64,000 nucleotides of DNA from a bacterium (GTDB lineage: Bacteria > Actinomycetota > Acidimicrobiia > Acidimicrobiales > CATQHL01). The notes below the pieces were generated by a model that was not told the DNA's origin, made no database searches, and saw only the letters and a program-made list of their open reading frames with translations. The DNA is taken from NCBI GenBank assembly GCA_028824415.1, contig JAPPDX010000104.1, forward strand, positions 1 to 64,000, written 5' to 3'. The position numbers and the translations under genes are program-made. This document shows, piece by piece, positions 31,206-36,520 of this stretch. Numbering within the stretch: position 1 is the stretch's first letter; each line of letters opens with the position of its first letter.

Positions 31206-31879
31206 TCATGCGGGTTGGCCTTCTTCCGCCTCGTCGCCGTACTGTCCGTACGCGAGTCCTCTCACATGCGGTTCTTGAGCGAGCAGGTTGCCGAGTTCGG
31301 CGAGACGCCCAGCGTCCCAACCGAGCGCCGATGCGACCGCCTCGTCCCAGCGGCGGCGCACATCGCAATAGCCGTCACGAAACTGCGGCACCTCTGTGTA
31401 GCGGGTCGCCTCCCAGCAGACGGCCAGCGTCTCACGGATGCAATCGTCTTCCAGGTCTGGGATCGGGAGGTCGCGCCAGACGGCGGGGTTGTAGAACGGG
31501 AATCTCAGTTTCTTGCCCGGACACCGCAGGATTAACAAGCGGCCGGGCGTGGAGTTCAGGAACACTGCGGCAGCCTTCGCCTGCGCCGCGTCCAGCCCGG
31601 TGACAGGCATCCAGCCCTGCCCGACGTAGCGCTTGTCGGACGCGACCGCAGTGAGCCGGGCCGTCGGAAGGCCTTGTCCCATTGACACCAACAGATGTCC
31701 TGCCTTCTCCAGGATCGGCGGCTCGCCGGGCTTCTTCCACTCCCAATATGCGTCGGGTCTAGCTTCGATCCGCTGCTGGCCGTCCGCGCCCTTGGATTGC
31801 AGCACGGGGAAGGGCCGCGAGCAGCCGCTGGGCTGCTTGCTGTAGTCGTCTCGCATCGCCTGCCCTGTCGCGTGTACCG
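31206..31879 (-). pseudogene. Out-of-frame target-recognition region of the RM enzyme
   Basis: This frame continues the type ISP-like enzyme but is shifted relative to it. It reads GQAMRDDYSKQPSGCSRPFP, a YWEWKKPGEPPILEKAGHLL block, then AVFLNSTPGRLLILR and FYNPAVWRDLPIPDLEDD, the N-x-T-P-G and L-x-x-I-P-x-P pattern at the end of single-chain methyltransferases. No start codon signal is seen before it. With 13 rather than 14 AG units in the upstream tract, the whole region would join the preceding gene as its C-terminus (stop at 31206, total 1770 aa). Confidence 0.7.
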
Positions 31880-34800: not shown

Positions 34801-36520
34801 CCATCCACCGGGCGACCCACTCGGTCACCTGCACTGTCTGGAGCGCCGCCGCCATCGCCTTCGACTTCTCGACGGAGTTTAGGAATGCGATACACGACTC
34901 GACGACCGGCGGCTGCTCCCCAGACTCTTCCGCCTCAGCACCTGTGGCTCCGCCAAGCACCAGTGCCAGCACCAGCCCCTTGGTGAACTCGGCGGCGGAC
35001 AGAGCGTTCTTGGTCTTTGGCTGGCTGCGGGCCAGCTGGTTCGCCAGCGCGAACAGGGCCGGGTCGTTGACGCCCAGCGCGATGATCCGATAGTCGGCCA
35101 GCCAGCCATTGCGGACCGCCTCGGTATACGTGCGGCGATATAGCTCGACGCCAAATGTCGCCTCGTCGTCCATGTCTCGCACAACCCAGCCGCTCGCGCC
35201 GCCGCGAGACGGCCGGGTCTGCCCGTCGTAGACCCGAGGCGTGGCAGTCTGGTAGACCCGGTACACCGCTGGGAAGCGCGCGTCGTCGTGACAGACAGTG
35301 AAGTCGCGGAGTTTCTCCTCGTCGGCCTTGGCGGTGCGACGCAATCCGGCGGTGCGATGCGCCTCATCGGCCACCAGCACCATCGCCTCCGCATCTGCGG
35401 CGAGTAGCGCCTCCCCGATGCGGTGGCTGGACTGGTAGGTGCCGAAGATCACATTGAGGACGTCCTTGCCGACGGACGACGCGATCCAGTCCTTGATCTG
35501 GTCGGGGTCGGTGGTTACGCGGCCCTTGATCTCCGACACGCTGACATGGCTCAGGTCCAGCGTCGGATCGTCCCTCAACGCGTCAAGGTGACGCTCCTCT
35601 GCGGGCTTAGGGACGCGTCCCTTGCTTCCGCCCATGCCTGGCAGTGGTTCGGCACCGCCCTCCGCGAAATGTCCGGCCGTTTGGTCCGAGCACACCGACA
35701 GCGACCGAATCGGTTGGGCGGCGTGGATTAGGTACTCGCGCCGCAGTTGCGCGACCAGTGCAATCGACGGGCACAACACCACCGCCGTGTCTCCAGCGCC
35801 GCACAGTTCCTCAACGATCCGAAGCGAGATGCGGGTCTTGCCCGTGCCGCATGGCAGCACGATCTTGCCGCGGGCGCGCCCCCTAGGGCTACCGCTGGTG
35901 GTGCTGTCCGCGTGCGCCCGCAGTGTCGCCACACTCTCGGCGACCGCTTCGTCCTGCATGCAGGATTTCGAGCGGAGAGCGCCCGGATCTGCGTCCTCGG
36001 CGCAATGCTGACAGTCGCCGTTGACGGCGGAGGCCGCGGCCTGTGCCTCCAAGTCGGCAGCAAAGTTGATGACCTTGATTGTCTTGCCAGACAGTGCCAC
36101 CGAGCGCGCGGCGGGAGCGCTCAGGGGCGCGTTACCGTTCGTGATCAGCCAGCGTTCCTCCCACACGTCTGCGGCAGAGTGGTGTCCGAAGGAGTCCAGT
36201 TCATCCTTCCCGATGGGATTGCCCGTCCCCGTGTCGTCGAGTTTGCGGGCCTTGCACTGGATCGCTACCAGCCCGCGGTCGGATCGCCGGATGCCCACGG
36301 CGTCGATCCCGTCGTCAGCGGGCGACGAACCAGGAAACCGCGCCTCGCGGTCGGGCCAGTCCTTCCACCTCCAGCAGGCATTCAGGTCCCATTCCCGAAT
36401 GTCGGGCGCGGTTGCGGCGATCTCCTCCTCCAACCAGATTCCGTCACCGGGATCGCAGCGGCGAGCAGATAGCTGATCAAGCGCTGCGACGATCTGTGGC
36501 GATCTGCGGTGCTCGCTCAT
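31880..36520 (-). CDS. Type ISP-like restriction-modification enzyme (truncated by phase)
   Basis: A single chain of 1546 aa as sequenced. Residues of about 65-90 form an Mrr-like nuclease core (DDGIDAVGIRR, LVAIQCKAR). The helicase has VLPCGTGKTRIS near 220, VLVADEAHRTAG near 380 and VIQAVGRAMRATPGKATGY near 645. The N6-adenine methyltransferase has AIDLACGSGTLLAALL near 1122 and IVMNPPFTNRTKMGEKF near 1273. This order matches type ISP enzymes such as LlaGI. The (AG)14 tract sits at about residue 1486 and leads to a stop 60 codons later, before the specificity region. ATG 36520 has AGGTGA upstream. Confidence 0.85.
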   Translation of the reverse strand: MSEHRRSPQIVAALDQLSARRCDPGDGIWLEEEIAATAPDIREWDLNACWRWKDWPDREARFPGSSPADDGIDAVGIRRSDRGLVAIQCKARKLDDTGTGNPIGKDELDSFGHHSAADVWEERWLITNGNAPLSAPAARSVALSGKTIKVINFAADLEAQAAASAVNGDCQHCAEDADPGALRSKSCMQDEAVAESVATLRAHADSTTSGSPRGRARGKIVLPCGTGKTRISLRIVEELCGAGDTAVVLCPSIALVAQLRREYLIHAAQPIRSLSVCSDQTAGHFAEGGAEPLPGMGGSKGRVPKPAEERHLDALRDDPTLDLSHVSVSEIKGRVTTDPDQIKDWIASSVGKDVLNVIFGTYQSSHRIGEALLAADAEAMVLVADEAHRTAGLRRTAKADEEKLRDFTVCHDDARFPAVYRVYQTATPRVYDGQTRPSRGGASGWVVRDMDDEATFGVELYRRTYTEAVRNGWLADYRIIALGVNDPALFALANQLARSQPKTKNALSAAEFTKGLVLALVLGGATGAEAEESGEQPPVVESCIAFLNSVEKSKAMAAALQTVQVTEWVARWMADNSAGSPVPFTMEHLDASSSVSQRDEAKVHLAQATPSAPHAVSNVGIFGEGTDSPNLSAVAFLAPRKSPIDVIQAVGRAMRATPGKATGYIVCPVLIPPDQDAERWLQISGPEDGWQELGQTLRALRAHDSRIEDNLAEQMIWCLPPSPSPDTKVVTVVSVAGGETGRLSHRLHVGKPGDAANAVEDVATGRKSLSDPEFHPFTQAALDAVTVASEDTEGDREGSLFSDGAIAAVVTGKPIVGLASQPSVEIRTAGVARDKPADEGTPGPVNIDKTKKLARKMINNGEGQRVPTRSERRKRRTKQDRQEHHAAQLLRLSGMADGGNAICANLLSKSGLARHRTERDANLLEDSVREAARHLRSDSLAGTLNEHYELDRLAADKREQQADGCTIAALLMMNAAMLHQRIAAGGWLAGVPSMDTIKASTNPIREIDRAWQTIRSHDFDPVIRPAVQAVHAIEDTGRTVGLERALHHIAAEAERLAETYADLGADHAGPLFNRVMGNQASDGAYFTRPAAATLTARLALDACRGDSDEPDWADESVWKDHKAIDLACGSGTLLAALLADMKRRARAAGASEQRLAELQRVAVESVVKGMDINPVSLQLAAAQLTQGNQDIRYRKMGLYLMPYGEADPTSGRRGSAGSLELLGQRKFLQRPGELPFDSDIGGEIGSQRLALDDDLSNDAELEDAVDAALDCRIVVMNPPFTNRTKMGEKFKPITRANLRDRSDCLQRMLCEADPSVDGVLDKNSIHPVFATLGERCLTDATGAVLAMISPTILATNASGLAERRWLASRLHLHTVLTNFATRDGNLSQNTEINESVFVFRRYDGPHPPTRVIALDRFPADERDTETLHSHLRTTETGTLPDGWGEISYWPAERVTAGDWTAAVWRSPELAAAAAEFASHDDLAALQRERERERERISGCAQDQSNAQRPVPQNEERGRKGQVMVHATLQTLYTDYRKTESRREATG
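32037..32064. repeat. (CT)14 dinucleotide tract inside the RM gene
   Basis: This is fourteen uninterrupted CT units on the plus strand, AG on the coding strand, translated as alternating Arg and Glu. Long dinucleotide tracts within genes are the classic substrate for slipped-strand phase variation. With 14 units the frame stops at 31880; with 13 (or 10, 16) it runs to 31206; with 15 (or 12) it stops after about 27 more codons. It is very unusual in DNA this rich in GC. Confidence 0.95.

Follow-up and report, generated by a model that had tools for sequence, protein, structure and literature searches.

The 64,000-nt stretch of Acidimicrobiales DNA analysed here (contig JAPPDX010000104.1, positions 1 to 64,000; hereafter "the window") carries on its minus strand a long open reading frame (ORF) for a restriction-modification (R-M) enzyme, and within that ORF a perfect (AG)14 tract. 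There are several ways in which the encoded protein resembles Type ISP enzymes. A nuclease, a superfamily 2 (SF2) helicase-like ATPase, a coupler, an adenine methyltransferase and a target recognition domain (TRD) follow one another in a single chain, the order characteristic of Type ISP. The catalytic motifs (Mrr-type D..QxK, GTGKT, DEAH, DLACGSG and NPPF) are all present, and these columns are invariant in homologs. The helicase part matches LlaBIII in sequence (4xqk, E 9e-48), and also LlaGI (5ffj). A structure model of the coupler, methyltransferase and TRD of an 85% identical ortholog (L031; mean predicted local distance difference test [pLDDT] 68) matches the folds of CamA (Z 22.7), LlaGI (Z 20.8) and LlaBIII (Z 20.6; LlaBIII residues 714–1577). 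The TRD region is included in this fold alignment, at the same mean pLDDT of 68 and without separation into core, jaw and guide subdomains. A profile of the methyltransferase and TRD found no Protein Data Bank (PDB) sequence at E 1e-3. On sequence and model together, the gene encodes a single-chain, Type ISP-like R-M enzyme.

About 30 homologs from several phyla (Actinomycetota, Chloroflexota, Gammaproteobacteria, Gemmatimonadota and others), nearly all in metagenome-assembled genomes (MAGs), have the catalytic part and the TRD in one frame, at ~50% identity. Aligned with them, the tract lies exactly between methyltransferase and TRD, and ~50 codons at this place have no counterpart in tractless homologs. 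A first-pass annotation of this DNA had taken the frame beyond the tract for a specificity region; it corresponds to the TRD of the homologs, and the fold match to LlaBIII and LlaGI supports the same assignment. A search with the TRD found no relative among viral contigs, and plasmids yielded just weak, partial Type ISP matches of <60% identity, none covering 80% of the query.

The number of AG units fixes the reading frame beyond the tract, as in phase-variable genes controlled by a simple sequence repeat (SSR). When frames are recomputed for tracts of 8–19 units, three outcomes emerge: (i) with 14 units, the assembled state of the window, and also with 11 or 17, translation stops at 31880 (phase "OFF-a"); (ii) with 13, 10 or 16 units it reads on to 31206 (phase "ON"), giving a protein of 1770 aa from the ATG at 36520, or 1773 aa from a GTG at 36529; (iii) with 15 or 12 units it stops at 31954, 26 codons past the tract (phase "OFF-b"). 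The perfect tract inside the coding region and all three outcomes had been described in the first-pass annotation and were reproduced on recomputation. The tract is the sole dinucleotide repeat of ≥5 units in the window and the sole (AG)8-or-longer repeat in the 3.19-Mb assembly; at 68% GC, chance is not a reasonable explanation. With the assembly a draft in 138 contigs, the count of 14 units is a consensus value.

Searches of the same genus and order, together with L031, gave a set of 12 orthologous genes, the window included, from sponge-associated or related Acidimicrobiales. The tract is present at the methyltransferase/TRD junction in all 12, with 14 (window), 15, 12, 8, 6, 11, 8, 14, 9, 14, >25 and >38 units. 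In the last two, the contig begins within the tract and the phase is unreadable. The ten readable phases comprise three ON (L031, G680 and G002), four OFF-a (window, G124, G006 and G713) and three OFF-b (G646 contig 54, G596 and G595). Related pairs in the TRD tree occupy different phases, e.g., G006/G002 and G596/G713, and one independent ortholog is ON with 15 units. Thus the tract ranges from 6 to over 38 units and is not fixed at 14, in agreement with the phase variation that the first-pass annotation had proposed. A strict DNA pattern (AG run plus CACAAGACC) matched the window alone among 396 genomes of the phylum; the orthologs were recovered by protein search of the order, not by DNA pattern.

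Beyond the tract, the TRD is under purifying selection whether or not it is in frame. The ratio of nonsynonymous to synonymous differences (pN/pS) in the TRD is 0.185 between the window and L031, and 0.094 between two OFF genomes; out-of-frame TRDs are constrained as strongly as the rest of the gene. OFF is therefore not decay, and a decayed 3′ end is excluded. Two marks of SSR phase variation are found together: unit number and phase vary among relatives while the distal part is still selected.

On the 3′ side of the tract lie three tandem copies of the ~16-residue first segment of the TRD: VHKTSPTLSAQYRRTK, VHATLQTLYTDYRKTE and VHATGQAMRDDYSKQP. From each copy to the next, the start shifts by 74 nt, which is 2 mod 3; every tract phase therefore brings a different single copy into frame (Table 1). 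Copy 1 ends in a TGA (31956-31954) that overlaps the ATG ahead of copy 2 (TGATG), and copy 3 contains an ATG at 31856-31854. The register is kept among orthologs: the distance from copy 2 to copy 3 is 2 mod 3 in 12 of 12, and that from copy 1 to copy 2 in all nine with a complete, separate copy 1; indels in the spacing are of 3, 6 or 12 nt. The TAG behind copy 2 is likewise present in 12 of 12, formed from an ON-frame NTA Leu/Val codon, and NTA makes up just 6.4% of ON-frame Leu/Val codons. The first-pass annotation was right that both OFF outcomes lose the specificity region; however, they are not plain truncations, as every frame has a junction copy of its own.

Table 1. Features of the R-M gene and of the surrounding region; positions refer to the window.
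Feature	Position	Strand	Evidence or remark
Whole gene, ON reading: Type ISP-like nuclease-helicase-methyltransferase-TRD, 1770 aa	31206..36520	-	
Mrr-type nuclease domain (Pfam Mrr_cat_2)	36062..36385	-	E 9e-9
SF2 helicase-like ATPase (ResIII + Helicase_C; GTGKT, DEAH)	34553..35959	-	Pfam; LlaBIII/LlaGI match
Coupler + gamma-class adenine methyltransferase (DLACGSG; NPPF)	32065..33892	-	alignments; fold match of L031 ortholog
(AG)14 tract, methyltransferase/TRD junction	32037..32064	-	Tandem Repeats Finder, 100% match; frame and alignment analysis
Junction copy 1 (VHKTSPTLSAQYRRT...)	31954..32025	-	in frame in OFF-b only (12, 15 units)
Junction copy 2 (VHATLQTLYTDYRKT...)	31880..31951	-	in frame in OFF-a only (11, 14 units); ends TAG
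Junction copy 3 (VHATGQAMRDDYSKQP)	31830..31877	-	in frame in ON only; TRD start
TRD, read in ON phase	31206..31877	-	
GmrSD_N (DUF262) nuclease-like gene	36815..38737	-	neighbour
UvrD-like helicase	28074..30563	+	neighbour
DrmD-like SNF2 helicase	24985..28404	+	neighbour
Tyrosine integrase	39815..41011	-	edge of defence region

The copies differ in the constraint they are under. Across the 12 genes, copy 2 has a pN/pS of 0.32 in its own OFF-a frame, vs 1.52 and 1.38 in the other two, with an excess of third-position changes (p = 0.0003). Copy 3 has a pN/pS of 0.23 in the ON frame. As a control, 48-nt windows were slid over the TRD; in-frame windows have a median of 0.22, and 0 of 116 out-of-frame windows reach 0.67 or less. 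Orthologous copies share 79% DNA identity, and different copies 58% within a genome vs 57% between genomes. Concerted evolution of these copies was considered and rejected, since same-genome copies are no more alike than cross-genome ones; the copies are thus not regenerated from copy 3. Because copy 2 is constrained in an OFF frame, the OFF-a form appears to be a selected product; the case of copy 1 is less clear.

The same layout is found in a second, unrelated R-M gene. Within the genus, just one more tract of (AG)9 or longer was found (G002, contig 104), and it sits in a Type IIG/DrmMI-like (Eco57I) methyltransferase gene, which we refer to as "family 2". Homologs turned up in 16 genomes when the order was searched (loci L134 and L140-L169, e.g., L157 4338-9544 and L160 4709-10965). 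At nearly every locus that covers the stretch, SSRs occupy the same two slots, with varying repeat units: (AACAG)11, (GA)9, (GCCGA)10 or G runs in slot 1, and (TC)20, (AG)8, G11, C17, (CCGA)6, (AGGCCGAC)7, (CGGT)9 or (CAGCACC)5 in slot 2. Behind slot 1 there are two cross-frame copies at a distance of 92 nt; behind slot 2 there are three, spaced by 65 or 71 nt. Each of these distances is 2 mod 3. The two slot-1 copies have own-frame pN/pS values of 0.21 and 0.22, and the slot-2 copies have values of 0.31–0.39. The latter are partly homogenised (nucleotide identity 0.72 within a genome vs 0.67 across genomes), which weakens the codon test there. Most family-2 loci encode the TRD in an ORF of its own, with a start codon (ATG or GTG) that overlaps the stop codon of copy 3, and several loci have a further G tract and a second TRD ORF downstream, the two TRD ORFs being separated by G tracts. 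Sampling of sponge symbionts from other phyla did not reveal family 2; four of 38 genomes matched, and those named are Acidimicrobiia.

Two family-2 genes (L157 in G576 and L158 in G155) are 99.7% identical, with 17 substitutions in 5263 nt, and have internal indels in three tracts only: 9/11 G, 11/14 CT and 11/12 G. Read from sequence, this pair is the best available evidence that such tracts may slip fast.

Taken together, we consider it probable that the window encodes a Type ISP-like R-M enzyme whose TRD is attached or removed by (AG)n slippage, with frame-staggered junction copies. The anatomy, the frames, the differences in length and phase between species, the register and stops, and the selection on copy 2 and the TRD are read from the sequence itself. 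In the proposed mechanism, slippage of the tract within populations would shift the ribosome among three frames, each of which would pass through exactly one copy in frame. In the ON phase (13 units here), translation would run through copy 3 into the TRD, giving the full enzyme. In OFF-a and OFF-b, the chain would end just after copy 2 or copy 1, and the product, a catalytic chain plus junction segment without TRD, would presumably be made and lack activity. Site-specific modification and restriction would then be lost together, and self-cleavage avoided. The junction copies may serve to finish the chain cleanly.

Some observations weigh against this interpretation. For this gene, no near-identical genome pair with differing tract length was found, and the number of units given for each tract is a consensus from assembly. 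Two related orthologs have copies 1 and 2 fused in one frame and another has lost copy 1; having a copy for every frame is thus not indispensable. Copy 1 has a pN/pS of 0.67 in its own frame vs 0.75 and 0.97 in the others, i.e., no clear own-frame constraint. In a structure model of the OFF-a form, the last 50 residues have a pLDDT of 29–41, and no docking of copy 2 is shown.

A serious rival, if an unlikely one, is that OFF phases still make the TRD, as a separate protein started at an internal ATG by translational coupling (reinitiation); the switch would then be between fused and separate TRD, or between much and little of it. Three observations favour it: the copy-1 stop overlaps the copy-2 ATG (TGATG, TAATG or ATGA) in all nine orthologs with a complete copy 1; the copy-3 ATG is kept in 12 of 12, whereas tractless homologs mostly have Leu or Val there; and at most family-2 loci the TRD has its own ORF with an overlapping start. 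However, the copy-3 ATG of the window lies ~23 nt past the OFF-a stop and has no conserved Shine-Dalgarno sequence, and copy 2 is constrained along its whole motif, which coupling alone would not need. We regard as improbable a second alternative, that phase variation here is of the ordinary ON/OFF kind and the staggered copies are neutral remnants of an old tandem duplication. A 74-nt unit does automatically set three copies in three frames, and constraint on copy 1 is weak, three orthologs having lost it or fused it to copy 2; but neutrality sits badly with constraint on copy 2 in the OFF frame only, with the retention of stops and register, and with the recurrence of the layout at two more sites, both in an R-M gene that is not homologous.

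Programmed frameshifting or transcriptional slippage would produce all isoforms from one allele and make the repeat number of little importance. Such a process might account for simultaneous selection on several frames, but tract lengths and phases differ widely between species, closely related family-2 genes differ almost only at such tracts, and no conserved shift signal was seen; we consider it very improbable. Lastly, the window comes from a draft MAG, and SSRs are error-prone, as would suit an assembly error or a decaying pseudogene. This explanation is largely refuted by the independent ortholog that is ON with 15 units, by the purifying selection on OFF TRDs and by the conservation of the architecture in 12 genomes, and we give it hardly any weight.

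SSR phase variation of R-M genes is already well known, and several systems come close to the present one. The Type ISP enzymes LlaGI and LlaBIII combine nuclease, SF2 ATPase, coupler, gamma N6-adenine methyltransferase and C-terminal TRD in one chain (PMC4872093; PDB 5ffj, 4xqk). The window gene shares this domain chain, with the helicase matching in sequence and the coupler, methyltransferase and TRD matching in fold. We know of no SSR in the Lla enzymes. In the Helicobacter pylori Type IIG enzyme JHP1272 (HP1353-HP1354), an SSR close to the C-terminal end controls the addition of a recognition piece similar to part of the TRD (PMC3936762). The position of the SSR in a single-chain R-M enzyme is thus similar; however, the short form of JHP1272 is active with another specificity, and no three-frame copies are described there. 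Poly-G length decides the attachment of C-terminal specificity sequence in NgoAV hsdS1/hsdS2 (PMC9577141) and in Campylobacter jejuni Cj0031 (PMC4889913); the former is a separate S subunit and the latter a Type IIG enzyme, and staggered copies are reported for neither. An (AG)n tract switches the MmyCI mod methyltransferase gene of Mycoplasma mycoides (PMC3498834), but there a TAA stop ends each OFF frame right after the repeat, whereas the present gene has its own copy of a protein segment for each frame. In Streptomyces coelicolor, likewise a GC-rich actinobacterium, the defence methyltransferase gene pglX is phase-variable through an SSR, a G tract (PMC4365076); this is a homopolymer in a multi-gene Pgl/BREX system, with no staggered copies described. 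The first-pass annotation had presented its tract as a new case of slippage that is established for methyltransferase genes elsewhere. The latter part stands, but precedents existed both for a methyltransferase gene with an SSR in a GC-rich actinobacterium and for SSRs that toggle C-terminal specificity parts. No report of frame-staggered copies behind a repeat was found in the open-licence literature searched, and there is a fair chance that this design is a new class of switch.

The neighbours of the gene, i.e., the integrase, GmrSD_N, UvrD-like and DrmD-like SNF2 genes (Table 1) and an AIPR (abortive infection) gene at 23212-24726 on the far side, mark the region as a defence region. The DrmD-like helicase is the sole DISARM component identified; no systematic search for DrmA/B/C was made. 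Elsewhere in the window, a tandem-repeat scan found a long ORF made of 111-nt repeats (4486-6747), and four 27-nt repeats (46758-46864) lie in an ORF with NMT1-like matches (44828-47095). Homologs of the R-M gene beyond the ortholog set have SSRs at other sites: (AG)13 in the nuclease-helicase linker, out of frame (L056 3555-3580); (AG)17 in the helicase, in frame (L043 2219-2252); C11 in the methyltransferase, out of frame (L073 6977-6987); and, in a distant homolog, (GA)51 and (GA)31 in frame inside the TRD (L025 3142-3307). Another homolog has a ~1.6-kb insertion between its nuclease and helicase parts (L061 3816-5399). Enrichment of SSRs across the wider family was dropped as a candidate, as five SSRs within the gene vs two outside, over similar lengths, is not significant. 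Long poly-G/C runs that adjoin runs of N or the ends of contigs (L004, L006 and L024) are possible sequencing artefacts and were not used.

Textbook accounts of phase variation treat OFF frames as waste, terminated at whatever stop codon comes next. In the present gene, the product of at least one OFF frame appears to be selected, and the 2 mod 3 spacing is found in two unrelated genes. The chances seem to us about even that this reflects a general device, in which any hypermutable repeat followed by copies staggered 2 mod 3 would make every phase a finished, selected isoform. Sponge-associated Acidimicrobiales would have evolved such a device in two or more unrelated R-M genes; in one of these genes, the catalytic chain would be joined to a row of separate TRD cassettes with repeats between them, allowing combinatorial switching of specificity. 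If so, repeat slippage can select among several defined protein isoforms, and microbes of dense sponge communities would have a simple way to vary DNA-target recognition against phages. Frame-staggered copies may then serve as a signature for spotting such switches in any genome.
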